A stretch of DNA of 64,000 bases from an uncultured bacterium. Its GTDB lineage: Bacteria; Verrucomicrobiota; Lentisphaeria; Victivallales; UBA1829. Shown here in pieces: positions 17,601 to 60,765 of this stretch (its first letter is position 1; each line of letters starts with the position of its first letter). The translations under genes and the position numbers were made by a program. The notes below the pieces were generated by a model, which saw nothing but the letters and a program-made list of their open reading frames with translations, was not told the DNA's origin and made no database searches. The stretch is from the NCBI GenBank assembly GCA_949297765.1, contig CASFTV010000027.1, positions 1-64,000 of the forward strand, given 5' to 3'.

Positions 17601-17640
17601 CAAAAAGCGGACTTCCTTCAAAGGGGGTCCGCTTTTTTTG
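17601..17640 (+). terminator. Terminator of the V-ATPase operon
   Basis: AAAAGCGGAC (about 17603-17612) pairs with GTCCGCTTTT (17627-17636) and continues into a run of seven T. Confidence 0.9.
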
Positions 17641-17673: not shown

Positions 17674-17764
17674 GGATTTCGTGCTTTGCACGACCAGCGT
17701 TTCGCCGCTGGACCGCGACAAGGACGGAGTCCTTGACCCGGGAAAATGCGACTGCATTTTCCCG
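17674..17764 (-). repeat. Four-hairpin repeat element, copy 1
   Basis: A 91-bp unit, 83/91 identical to 53008-53098. It holds four successive hairpins: CGTGC/GCACG, CCAGCG/CGCTGG, CAAGGAC/GTCCTTG, and a 10-bp stem GGGAAAATGC/GCATTTTCCC. On the minus strand it begins 8 nt after the stop of the acetyltransferase gene. It falls between the ends of two convergent units (the V-ATPase operon and this gene). Confidence 0.85.
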
Positions 17765-17772
17765 TTCCGGAG

Positions 17773-18672
17773 TCAGCGGCCGGTGATGTCGTGTTTCACG
17801 ATGTCGCCGGGCATGGTGCACTGATCCGCCCAGATTTTGCGGCCGGGGTAGATGGATGTGTGGATGCCGGTATGGACGTTTTCGCCGATGATTGAGCCGA
17901 ATTTGCGTCGGCCGGTATCCAGAAGTTTGCCGCAGACTTTGCTGGTATGGTTTTTGCCGTCGTGGCGGAAATTCGATGTGATCGTTCCGGCGCCGAAGTT
18001 GGTGAAGGAGCCGACGATGCTGTCGCCGATATAGCTGAGGTGTCCGGCGGAAACCTTGTTCATCAGAATGGAGTTTTTGATTTCGACCGCCTGTCCGACA
18101 TGGCAGTTGTCGCCCAGCGACGTATTGCCGCGGAAGTAGCAGTTCGGACCGATCTTGCAGTTTTTCCCGATGACCGTCACACCTTCCATATAAACTCCGG
18201 GAAGCACCACGGATCCCTCTCCGAGAATTAGGATTCCATCAATATGAGCCCCTTCCCGGACCGTTCCGGAGATCTTGCTTTCCGTGATTTCGGAAAGCAC
18301 CTCTTCGTGAACCCGGAGCAGATCCCAGGGATAGCGGATCCGGAAACTGGCCTCGTCGGCCGGAATGGTCACCGCCCCGGACGGAAGTTCTCCGGAGGGA
18401 GAACGCCAGGCAAGCGGCTGCTGTTCCGCATCCAGAAGAATGTACGGTCCCGGAAGCGCGGCCAGCCGTTCCAGAAGAGCTTTGGAAGGCCAGAATGCGA
18501 TCGTTGCCGTAATCATATCGGAACTGTTGAAATCGCAGACCGCCCCTTCCCAGCGGGAGAGGATCACATCGTTGACATTGGTTCCCGCCATTTCCAGTTC
18601 CGCAAGCGAGCGGTGGCAGCAGAGCGGAGCAAGGGTCTCACGGGTTTCGTTGCGGAGAATTTGAATCAGCAT
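17773..18672 (-). CDS. GlmU-like left-handed beta-helix sugar-phosphate acyltransferase
   Basis: A 299-residue protein. The C-terminal two thirds (about 130-299) are hexapeptide-repeat beta-helix with the GlmU-type block AGHLSYIGDSIVGSFTNFGAGTITSNFRHDGKNHTSKV, whose His, Tyr and Asn match the glucosamine-1-phosphate acetyltransferase active site. The N-terminal 120 residues are far too short for a full pyrophosphorylase domain and lack its GxGTR-type motif. The start at 18672 overlaps the glmM stop as ATGA, so the pair is translationally coupled. Likely role: acetylation of the GlmM product towards UDP-GlcNAc, with a separate uridylyltransferase elsewhere. A structured repeat follows its stop codon. 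Confidence 0.82.
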   Translation of the reverse strand: MLIQILRNETRETLAPLCCHRSLAELEMAGTNVNDVILSRWEGAVCDFNSSDMITATIAFWPSKALLERLAALPGPYILLDAEQQPLAWRSPSGELPSGAVTIPADEASFRIRYPWDLLRVHEEVLSEITESKISGTVREGAHIDGILILGEGSVVLPGVYMEGVTVIGKNCKIGPNCYFRGNTSLGDNCHVGQAVEIKNSILMNKVSAGHLSYIGDSIVGSFTNFGAGTITSNFRHDGKNHTSKVCGKLLDTGRRKFGSIIGENVHTGIHTSIYPGRKIWADQCTMPGDIVKHDITGR

Positions 18673-47756: not shown

Positions 47757-47863
47757 ATCAACAGACGGACTTTTTATAAAAAAAATCCTCTTTCAGACTC
47801 AATTTATCCGGGACAAAAATTCTCCCGAGGCCTCCGGGAAAGACTCCGCACCGTACAAAAAAA

Positions 47864-47947
47864 TGGTGCTCGAGGGGAGACTCGAACTCCCACGGATCGC
47901 TCCACTAGCACCTCAAGCTAGCGCGTCTGCCATTCCGCCACCCGAGC
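47864..47947 (-). tRNA. tRNA-Leu (GAG), copy 1
   Basis: A minus-strand class II tRNA of 84 nt including encoded CCA: acceptor GCTCGGG, anticodon loop TTGAGGT (GAG), long variable arm, T-arm GGGAGTTCGAGTCTCCC. Its sequence is identical to the copy at 48058-48141. Confidence 0.96.
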
Positions 47948-48057
47948 ATCTCGCAGTACGGCTCCGCCGGATTCGGCGGATCTCAGGAGCTCTTTCACTC
48001 CCTGCTTTCCCAAAAATCAAATCAAGCTCCATCCCCGCGGGATTCGCATCCCGGAGA

Positions 48058-48141
48058 TGGTGCTCGAGGGGAGACTCGAACTCCCACGGATCGCTCCACT
48101 AGCACCTCAAGCTAGCGCGTCTGCCATTCCGCCACCCGAGC
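48058..48141 (-). tRNA. tRNA-Leu (GAG), copy 2
   Basis: Identical to the copy at 47864-47947, 110 bp away, in the same orientation. It is the promoter-proximal copy; a promoter lies at 48171-48198. Confidence 0.96.
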
Positions 48142-48170
48142 ATCTTGCTTTGACATTTGCTGCGTCGTAT

Positions 48171-53007: not shown

Positions 53008-53098
53008 GGATTTCGTGCTCCGCACGACCAGCGTTTCGCCGCTGGACCGCGACAAGGACAGAGTCCTTGACCCGGAAAAATGCCGATGCATTTTTCCG
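53008..53098 (-). repeat. Four-hairpin repeat element, copy 2
   Basis: Matches 17674-17764 at 83 of 91 positions, with the same four hairpins. On the minus strand it begins 7 nt after the stop of the HTH gene. The 4th stem has an A-T pair where copy 1 has G-C, a compensatory change. Confidence 0.85.
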
Positions 53099-53105
53099 TA
53101 ACGGA

Positions 53106-53513
53106 TCAGTCGCGGAGTTTTTCCAGGATTCGTTGCAGCGTCGCGAGGCTGAGCTCCGCTATTTCGAAAATGCAGGCTCTTTGGCCGGGGTGCGGAATCG
53201 TTTTCGCGTGTTCCCAGTTGCCGACGGAAAAGCGGGTTGCATCCGTAAGGCGGCCGAACTTTGTCTGGGAAAGGCAGAGGGTTTTCCGCAATGCGAGAAT
53301 GTCGGAAGAGCGGATCTGAGACCAGAGTTTTCTTTTCCCGTTTTCGCCGAGCATTCCGGCGACAATTCTTTCCAGATCAGCGGTTTTCCGTTCCAGCTCG
53401 CCGACCGTGTCAAGGTTCCCGATCATTCTGGAAAGCAGCGGTGCAAGCATGGGACGGGTCCTGACTGAAACATGGCGCAGAATTCCGCGCTTTAAAATCC
53501 GTGTTTCTTCCAT
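53106..53513 (-). CDS. Small XRE-type helix-turn-helix protein
   Basis: A 135-residue protein whose C-terminal half is an XRE/Cro-like HTH: SDILALRKTLCLSQTKFGRLTDATRFSVGNWEHAKTIPHPGQRACIFEIAEL. This type is often seen in antitoxins and small regulators. The N-terminal half is a charged helix. No toxin-like gene adjoins it. The start at 53513 has a GGGGAG ribosome site; the frame is open upstream but AT-rich and unlike protein. The four-hairpin repeat follows its stop. Confidence 0.72.
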   Translation of the reverse strand: MEETRILKRGILRHVSVRTRPMLAPLLSRMIGNLDTVGELERKTADLERIVAGMLGENGKRKLWSQIRSSDILALRKTLCLSQTKFGRLTDATRFSVGNWEHAKTIPHPGQRACIFEIAELSLATLQRILEKLRD

Positions 53514-53672
53514 AAACGCTCCCCGGGTGTAAAAAATTCGGATTTTGTAAAATACTGCATTTTCATTTTTTTTCAAATGGGAGGGAAAAGATTTTTCTGG
53601 TCTTAAGCGGAAAAGGATTCGCGGATCCGGAGAAAAAACATACAAAAAGCTCTTTTTTTTTCGGCTCCGGGG

Positions 53673-59025: not shown

Positions 59026-60765
59026 ATGGTTGTTGCAGATCGGAATCTGAGCTTTGATGTAGTTGTTGTGGGAGGGGGGATCGCCGGACTCTGTGCCGCG
59101 GTCGCCGCGGCGCGGCACGGAGCGAAAACAGGGATCATTCAGGACCGTCCCATGCTCGGCGGAAACGCCTCCAGCGAAATCCGGATGTGGATCTACAATG
59201 CGCGCGGGGAAAACCGCAAGGAAACCGGACTGCTGGAAGAACTCCAGCTTGACAACATTTTCTACAATCCGGCCATGAAATATACGCTCTGGGACTACGC
59301 GATGTACTCGTTTGTCAAAGCGGAAAAGAATCTCACGCTTCTGCTGAACACCGCCGTGGAATCCTGCACCACATCCGGGGATGTCATTACCGGAATCTGC
59401 GGCTGGAATCTGATTGAATACGTCCGGTATCATATTACGGGGAAGATTTTCATCGACTGTTCCGGCGACGGCATTCTGCGTCTTTCCGGCGCGGCCGCCC
59501 GCCGCGGGCGCGAAGCGAAAAATGAGTTCGGCGAATCTTATGCGCCGGATCGGGCCGACAACTGTACGCTGAGCAGTTCCATCGTAATGCAGCTGCGCAG
59601 ATCCGGAGAGGCGGATCGTCCGTTCCGCGTTCCGGCATGGGCGTATGTCTTCACCGATGAAACGATCCCGCCCCGGAGCCTGCATCCGGAAGGAAACAAT
59701 TTCTGGTGGGTCTCGTTCGGCGGCGTCAAAGACACCTGGTGGGTCTCGTTCGGCGGCGTCAAAGACACGCTGCATGACGCGGAGGAGATCCGGGAGGAGC
59801 TGTTCAAGATCGCCTACGGCGCATGGGCGTACATCAAAAACCATCCGGACGGACGGGGAAAGGGATGGACTCTCGACTGGATCGGCAGTCTGCCGGGAAA
59901 ACGGGAGAGCTGGCGCTTCGAGGGCGACCATATCCTCACGCAGTGCGACATCGAAGCCGGAGGAATTTTTCCCGACACCGTCGCACACGGCGGATGGAAT
60001 ATGGATGAACACATGCCCGAAGCATTTTATTTCAAAGGGAAACCCTCGATTCTGCATCCGACGCCGTCGCCGTTCGGGATTCCGTACCGGAGCCTCTATT
60101 CCCGCAACATCCGCAATCTGCTGTTCGCGGGACGCCAGATTTCCGCCTCGCACATGGCGCAGAGTTCGATCCGGGTCATGGGAACGTGCGCGGTGACAGG
60201 ACAGGCGGCGGGGACCGCCGCCGCTCTGGCGGTCAAATACGGAACGTTCCCGCGGGAGGTCGGATCGGCGCATCTTGCGGAACTGCGGGAAACGCTGCTG
60301 GAGGACGATCAGTTCATTCCGGGCCTCCGCCGGACGCCGTCGCCTCTCTCGCTCCTCGGGACCCCCTCCCACGAGACGCTCCGCGACGGGATGGACCGCG
60401 ACTGGGACGACGGATCTCACGGAATCACGCTTGCGCCGGGAGACTCCTGCGGATACTCGTTCAGCGAACCCGTGGAGATTTCCGGAATCCGCATCGTCTT
60501 CGACAGCGACCTTTCGGACAACAAACGTCTCTCCTGCGAGGAGGGTCGGCCGGCGCGGGAGATGCCGGGATGCCTGTTCCGCCGCTACCGGGTCGAAATT
60601 CAGAACGGGGACGGCGCATGGGTCACGGTCCGGGAGGAGACGGAAAACCGTCATCGCCTGGTCCGGATGCACTGGCCGCCGGTCACGGCGCGAGCGATCC
60701 GGATTCTTCCCCTTGAAGCATGGGGAGGAAACGGGGGACGCATCTTTTCCGTGGATGTTCTCTGA
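59026..60765 (+). CDS. FAD-dependent oxidoreductase with an 11-residue tandem duplication
   Basis: A 579-residue flavoprotein of the FAD_oxidored (PF12831) type. The N-terminal GGGIAGLCAAVAAARHGAKTGIIQDRPMLGGNASSEIRMW binds FAD; near residue 365 NLLFAGRQISASHMAQSSIRVMGTCAVTGQAAGTAAALA closes the FAD site. A beta-rich C-terminal domain (about 440-579) resembles a discoidin-like carbohydrate-binding fold. At residues 227-248, WWVSFGGVKDT occurs twice in succession from an exact in-frame 33-bp duplication (59704-59736, 59737-59769). No signal peptide. First gene of an operon with a transporter and BNR protein. Reaction unknown; oxidation of a sugar or glycoside is plausible. Confidence 0.87.
   Translation: MVVADRNLSFDVVVVGGGIAGLCAAVAAARHGAKTGIIQDRPMLGGNASSEIRMWIYNARGENRKETGLLEELQLDNIFYNPAMKYTLWDYAMYSFVKAEKNLTLLLNTAVESCTTSGDVITGICGWNLIEYVRYHITGKIFIDCSGDGILRLSGAAARRGREAKNEFGESYAPDRADNCTLSSSIVMQLRRSGEADRPFRVPAWAYVFTDETIPPRSLHPEGNNFWWVSFGGVKDTWWVSFGGVKDTLHDAEEIREELFKIAYGAWAYIKNHPDGRGKGWTLDWIGSLPGKRESWRFEGDHILTQCDIEAGGIFPDTVAHGGWNMDEHMPEAFYFKGKPSILHPTPSPFGIPYRSLYSRNIRNLLFAGRQISASHMAQSSIRVMGTCAVTGQAAGTAAALAVKYGTFPREVGSAHLAELRETLLEDDQFIPGLRRTPSPLSLLGTPSHETLRDGMDRDWDDGSHGITLAPGDSCGYSFSEPVEISGIRIVFDSDLSDNKRLSCEEGRPAREMPGCLFRRYRVEIQNGDGAWVTVREETENRHRLVRMHWPPVTARAIRILPLEAWGGNGGRIFSVDVL
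59704..59769 (+). repeat. In-frame 33-bp tandem duplication inside the FAD oxidoreductase gene
   Basis: Two 33-bp units (59704-59736 and 59737-59769) match at 32 of 33 positions; only the last base differs. They encode WWVSFGGVKDT twice. The near identity indicates a recent event or an assembly artefact. Confidence 0.9.

Follow-up and report, generated by a model that had tools for sequence, protein, structure and literature searches.

A Dispersed Four-Hairpin Repeat at Gene Ends of Lentisphaerota That Looks Like a Relative of REP/BIME Elements

Introduction

What is a 91-bp unit that folds into four successive hairpins doing behind the stop codons of two genes in one stretch of bacterial DNA? 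The stretch, referred to below as the window, comprises 64,000 nucleotides of contig CASFTV010000027.1 from an uncultured member of the Victivallales. A preliminary description, made from the letters of the window, saw in the two copies a sign of selection for structure, and offered a REP/BIME-like mobile element aimed at gene ends, a 3'-UTR stability or termination element, and a small RNA as possible explanations. Here, we follow the unit through its source genome and related genomes, and weigh these and other readings.

Results

The Two Copies in the Window

Copy 1 (positions 17674..17764, + strand) and copy 2 (53008..53098, + strand) both belong to subfamily A of the unit. Their 91-bp alignment is gap-free and contains 8 mismatches, the distribution of which was confirmed as first described. 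Six differences fall in loops: two in the loop of hairpin 1 (TTT/TCC), one in that of hairpin 3 (GGA/AGA), and three in that of hairpin 4 (GACT/CGAT). The remaining two constitute one compensated pair of stem 4, changed from G-C to A-T. The hairpins of copy 1, delimited by sequence and covariation and all read on the + strand, are hairpin 1 at 17679..17693 (TCGTGC-TTT-GCACGA), hairpin 2 at 17694..17711 (CCAGCG-TTTCGC-CGCTGG), hairpin 3 at 17719..17735 (CAAGGAC-GGA-GTCCTTG), and hairpin 4 at 17739..17764 (CGGGAAAATGC-GACT-GCATTTTCCCG). When 121-nt segments carrying the window copies were folded, their stability exceeded that of shuffled sequences on either strand (z from -3.5 to -4.6). Minimum free energy folds that include the flanks also use competing long-range pairs, and the four-hairpin form is therefore based on covariation, not on energy.

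Copy 1 is flanked on one side by an ATP synthase subunit C-like gene, behind which an intrinsic-terminator-like hairpin with a T-run (17602..17637, + strand) is located outside the repeat. On the other side is a hexapeptide acyltransferase gene (17773..18672, - strand), initially termed GlmU-like, which is adjoined by a phosphoglucomutase/phosphomannomutase gene. Copy 2 is followed by an open reading frame at 53106..53645 (- strand), for which the gene caller prefers a later start (53106-53450); the label of an HTH gene that it had been given was not upheld, since the frame has no Pfam match. Hairpin 4 is separated from the minus-strand stop codon by 8 nt in copy 1 and by 7 nt in copy 2, and the orientation of the two copies is identical. 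No promoter-like site was found near either copy. Two other repeats were observed in the window, namely a tRNA gene present in two near-identical (99%) versions, 194 bp apart, at 47863-48148, and a 33-bp stretch (11 codons) inside open reading frames that is duplicated exactly, head-to-tail, at 59703-59768.

Copy Number and Distribution

The source genome (4.23 Mb in 92 contigs) contains 40 copies of the unit detectable by BLAST, with a best non-self E-value of 5e-33, far above chance, while the covariance models matched 48 times (model R1) and 51 times (the broader model R2). Three genomes of the same genus carry 28-37 copies each, and two genomes from another genus of the family carry 106-119 and 79 copies; no copies were found in most other genera of the family. 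The search through the whole genome and through Lentisphaerota has thus taken the unit far beyond the two copies first seen. When 195 genomes from the phylum were sampled, 14 proved to be carriers, all belonging to the same order. A scan of GTDB genomes for the scaffold pattern (see below) matched records of Lentisphaeria and Victivallales, among them that of Victivallis vadensis DSM 14823, in which about 10 divergent copies are present; the pattern is short, and many of its other GTDB matches, in GC-rich genomes, are due to chance. Three unrelated control genomes produced zero model matches. In a metagenome-assembled genome named Ruminococcus sp. RGIG4760 (loci L166 and L198), 22 model matches were observed, which implies either that the bin is misnamed or that the unit has reached another phylum.

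A search of phages and plasmids revealed no match to the four-hairpin unit, and a phage or plasmid origin was rejected on these grounds. The scaffold pattern was matched in 34 viral contigs, where a short inverted repeat at hairpin 1 occurs only in near-identical stretches of four of them, and the rest of the scaffold is absent. Rfam searches recovered only tRNAs in the window and nothing credible over the element up to an E-value of 10, so that membership in a known Rfam family was rejected at curated and loose thresholds alike. In an open-access library, no relevant literature on such repeats in Victivallis or Lentisphaerae was found. The preliminary description had not recognised the unit, and these searches bear it out.

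Covariation, Scaffold, and Subfamilies

The inference of selection for structure and the covariation test proposed for it could be taken up with larger alignments, and both gave clear support. Among 85 copies from many subfamilies, changes on both sides were seen in 29 of 30 base pairs, 97.4% of cells were paired (0 of 500 shuffles), and the covariation score was 0.489, versus 0.132 for shuffled alignments and at most 0.076 for slid partners; this alignment was fitted to the covariance model and leans toward structure. An excess of covariation over shuffles is also clear in a MAFFT alignment of the source genome copies, in which 11 of 30 pairs show both-side changes and 97.3% of cells are paired. 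The observation that no stem is disrupted holds between the two window copies, but not for further copies in the source genome: there, 2.7% of cells contain broken pairs, and hairpin 4 is lost or altered in L039 and L040.

The stems are set in a constant scaffold (TTTCG..CGACCAGC..GCTGGACCG), with TTTCG at the start of the unit. In subfamily A, GACC is found behind each of hairpins 1-3, in 38, 39, and 39 of 40 copies, respectively. Between subfamilies, stems are exchanged wholesale with the scaffold unchanged. Subfamily B is characterised by other stems; adjacent A-B pairs are arranged head-to-head in 14 of 14 cases, and A-A and B-B neighbours are mostly in tandem. In genus g3, the units are combined with other palindromes into arrays, some of them built as tandem repeats of 407 bp. 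Loci L086 and L084 of that genus are tandem arrays with a period of 407-410 bp that contain subfamily A and inverted subfamily B, and they also hold further multi-armed palindromic modules with matched stem changes of their own. At L088, L325, L362, L363, and L367, short tandem repeats of the hairpin 1 5' arm (GATTTCGTGCTTCGCA...) directly precede the unit.

A possible, if doubtful, reading of interchangeable stems on a constant scaffold is that the unit represents a new class of gene-end element that insulates convergent transcripts, and that a dedicated, lineage-specific factor recognises its linkers together with the shape of its hairpin array. Such a factor would ignore the letters of the stems, so that subfamilies could exchange whole stems and yet the array would be kept more tightly than neighbouring genes.

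Location and Orientation Relative to Genes

Genes were called using a simple codon-usage caller trained on the 64-kb window. The copies are intergenic, with one cluster overlapping a predicted open reading frame that is itself a weak call. In four genomes, 46 of 90 clusters are located between convergent genes, compared with 41 of 300 ordinary gaps that are 60 nt or longer (p 2e-12), and 7 of 90 are located between divergent genes, compared with 73 of 300 such gaps (p 3e-4). The convergent excess is weaker in the source genome alone (12/37, p 0.007). This excess and the number of copies agree with the REP/BIME-like dispersal toward gene ends that had been suggested. Given its unrelated neighbours and the differences in site between species, the unit was rejected as a gene-specific regulator.

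The distance of 7-8 nt between hairpin 4 and the stop codon does not extend beyond the two window copies as a rule; the median distance to the stop codon of the facing gene is 29 nt, with a wide spread. The orientation relative to the gene, common to both window copies, is not general either. In tandem spacers of the source genome, 17 copies point with and 3 against transcription, whereas the corresponding numbers in the relatives are 3 and 14, and a consistent with-transcription orientation, which fails in the congeners, was rejected. In 28 of the 46 convergent cases, hairpin 4 lies no more than 35 nt from the stop codon without a terminator-like site between, and a hairpin barrier at gene ends is therefore favoured. 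We infer that the hairpins are probably constrained at transcript 3' ends as a barrier. The left flanks of many source genome copies (e.g., L003, L010, and L028) carry purine-rich, GGGATGG-like simple sequence, located between the upstream gene and hairpin 1.

The unit shares with intrinsic terminators the presence of hairpins at gene 3' ends, but differs from them in having no U-tail behind a GC stem. A terminator-like pattern in the unit itself was detected in 4 of 109 copies on the + strand and in 0 of 109 on the - strand; since no U-run directly follows the GC stem, the unit was rejected as an intrinsic terminator, and the proposal of a termination element is weak in this form. A separate terminator is present at some convergent or tandem sites of the source genome. 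In the three congeners, many copies lie directly behind a separate, conserved terminator-like hairpin with a T-run, forming a composite of ~230 bp. The composite is conserved before hairpin 1 at L342, L331, L346, and other loci of G001-G003, and consists of a GCCTTTGCG..CGCAAAGGC hairpin followed by a long terminator-like hairpin ending in CTCCTCTCGCATTTTTT. The simple terminator detector allows no bulges and misses this long hairpin, and the left-side terminator counts are therefore too low.

One-sided stem changes at orthologous sites comprise 13 wobble and 27 disruptive changes (10 of them A-C), without wobble enrichment, and within the genus neither strand is consistently favoured by wobble pairs. 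In A3, G-T pairs outnumber A-C pairs by 42 to 15, but this apparent excess is due to the alignment being fitted by a G-U-favouring model. Because one-sided changes show no preference for wobble, there is room for a role at the DNA level, and a role of a single RNA strand gains no support.

A DNA-level element, whose palindromes would act as duplex, cruciform, or single-stranded DNA with RNA folding being incidental, is an unlikely alternative that would nevertheless fit several of these results. Candidate examples are sites for gyrase or nucleoid proteins that would relieve supercoiling between convergent genes; some BIMEs have been described as such binding sites. It is compatible with the strong enrichment in convergent spacers, in which positive supercoils meet, with the lack of a fixed orientation relative to genes, and with the finding that, within the genus, wobble pairs are biased toward neither strand. 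What argues against it is that the hairpin stems are short and separate, and that the proximity of hairpin 4 to the stop codon at most convergent sites would be superfluous for the relay of supercoils. A barrier at transcript ends must in turn be reconciled with an orientation that flips between species, with the separate terminators at some of the source genome sites, and with the lack of the wobble enrichment that a single-strand RNA role would favour.

Site History and Divergence

Of the 40 copies in the source genome, 37 have no gene end in common with the compared copies of three congeners, and 3 do. In the subset of source genome sites for which orthologous gene ends were fetched in G001-G003, the element was absent with one exception, a shared gene end behind the permease-like gene at L010. 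One convergent spacer harbours the unit in G001 and G003; in G002 it is empty (occupied by unrelated sequence) and too diverged for a target-site duplication to be read. Among G001-G003 themselves the majority of sites are orthologous, and constant site turnover was rejected for this reason. Two pairs of loci have near-identical flanks, pointing to either recent transfer or assembly cross-contamination: L325 (G001:C136) and L362 (G002:C15), at 99.8-99.9% identity in draft genomes that otherwise differ by 15-20%, and L027 (G000:C55) and L364 (G002:C6), at 98.7% over 1.5 kb.

Divergence was calculated for 13 orthologous pairs among the relatives G001-G003, with each copy used once. Per site, it amounted to 0.281 in loops, 0.067 in stems, and 0.058 in linkers, compared with 0.156 in coding DNA and 0.337 across 25 nt on the right side of the unit. 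Orthologous copies resemble each other slightly more than non-orthologous copies do (values as low were obtained in 67 of 5000 permutations for loops and in 3 of 5000 for stems), and therefore descend from common insertions. Homogenisation between copies may add to the conservation of stems; this, and the small size of the difference between orthologous and other copies, count against constraint as a barrier.

An element that is purely selfish, non-autonomous, and without a host role appears improbable. Its bias toward gene ends would reflect loss of insertions in genes and promoters, and its stems would be conserved because active source copies need them. The dispersal, the differences in site between species, the single empty site, the depletion in divergent spacers, and the subfamily mosaics would all be accounted for. 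Such an element is disfavoured because constraint persists at fixed sites, where stems and linkers diverge less than coding DNA and about four-fold less than loops. In addition, the excess of convergent over tandem spacers exceeds what avoidance of promoters would give.

It is more improbable still that a mutational bias, rather than selection on structure, produced the paired changes, by way of quasipalindrome correction during hairpin-templated repair or replication. Both-side changes often come without intermediates, as at one base pair that is A-U in 28 and G-C in 12 source genome copies with zero intermediates; several matched changes in stem 4 are found within single copies (L015, L021, L026, and L036); and the lack of wobble enrichment among one-sided changes points the same way. 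Yet wobble intermediates (9 G-U) are present at another base pair, and missing intermediates are explained equally well by founder subfamilies that multiplied. That the linkers, which are unpaired, are as conserved as the stems speaks against palindrome repair as the whole cause.

A family of trans-acting small RNAs, or another defined RNA class with its own promoter, would suit the strong covariation and the conserved unpaired linkers, but is very improbable given the lack of even a loose Rfam match or a promoter-like site near the window copies, the dozens of copies in unrelated spacers, and the absence of strand bias within the genus.

Comparison with Known Repeats

REP/BIME-type repeats are best known from Proteobacteria, and have been associated with a tyrosine transposase and with the tag GTAG. 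GTAG or CTAC was found in 0 of the 40 source genome copies. The associated REP-type transposase that had been anticipated did not materialise: no RAYT or IS200-type mobiliser was found beside the element, no significant match to the element was present near 22 Y1_Tnp loci, and such an enzyme was rejected as the mobiliser. The sole Y1_Tnp match in the source genome resembles an IS200/IS605 transposase, and G001 and G002, which are copy-rich incomplete drafts, yielded no Y1_Tnp match. Terminal inverted repeats, a criterion for MITEs, are absent, the ends TTTCG.. and ..CCG not being mutually inverted. Because it has neither the GTAG tag nor an associated RAYT transposase, the unit is not a classical REP. 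The failure to find a mobilising enzyme also counts against our preferred account of a repeat that spreads and acts as a barrier.

REP/BIME elements are high-copy intergenic palindromes, located mostly downstream of genes in convergent or unidirectional spacers, and form mosaics of inverted neighbours (PMC3733652, PMC2817692). Like them, the four-hairpin unit is palindromic, intergenic, present in high copy number (40-51), and located at gene ends and in convergent spacers, and its clusters alternate in orientation as BIME mosaics do, with all A-B neighbours head-to-head. Unlike them, it is not one palindrome of 20-40 bp but 91 bp with four different hairpins. REPs with a CGTC tag are gene-end palindromes without a dedicated transposase (PMC3733652). 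The unit resembles these in its location and in seemingly having no transposase of its own, but the tag is not found at a fixed end: CGTC or GACG occurs somewhere in 24 of 40 source genome copies, and in those inspected it involves the hairpin 3 loop, which is variable; neither sequence has a fixed place at a hairpin foot. The bcr1-type repeats of the Bacillus cereus group are longer, dispersed, multi-hairpin elements in which the fold is conserved and changes are paired. The unit, likened to them by description only, shares the conservation of fold and the paired changes, but belongs to another phylum and has no match in Rfam.

Discussion

As far as we have searched, the four-hairpin unit appears to be a previously undescribed repeat related to the REP/BIME elements known from gene ends. 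Our preferred reading, to which we assign a probability of about 0.5, is that it is a modular palindromic repeat, non-coding and dispersed in genomes of Victivallales-type Lentisphaerota, REP/BIME-like in character and acting at transcript 3' ends. According to this reading, short structured DNA of the REP/BIME kind would have been spread through the genome by some mobilising machinery, and would have accumulated at transcript ends, above all between convergent genes. Once inserted, the hairpin array would act on the end of the adjoining transcript, and may serve as a barrier to 3' exonucleases and to read-through where a stop codon has no ordinary terminator behind it. The array may be recognised in part via its constant linkers.

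The unit represents a larger, four-hairpin gene-end family in another phylum than the one from which such repeats are best known, without the GTAG tag or the tyrosine transposase. Its covariance model can be used for scanning other genomes. The higher conservation of stems and linkers than of adjacent coding DNA at fixed orthologous sites makes the old question of whether palindromes at gene ends are parasites or working parts directly testable.
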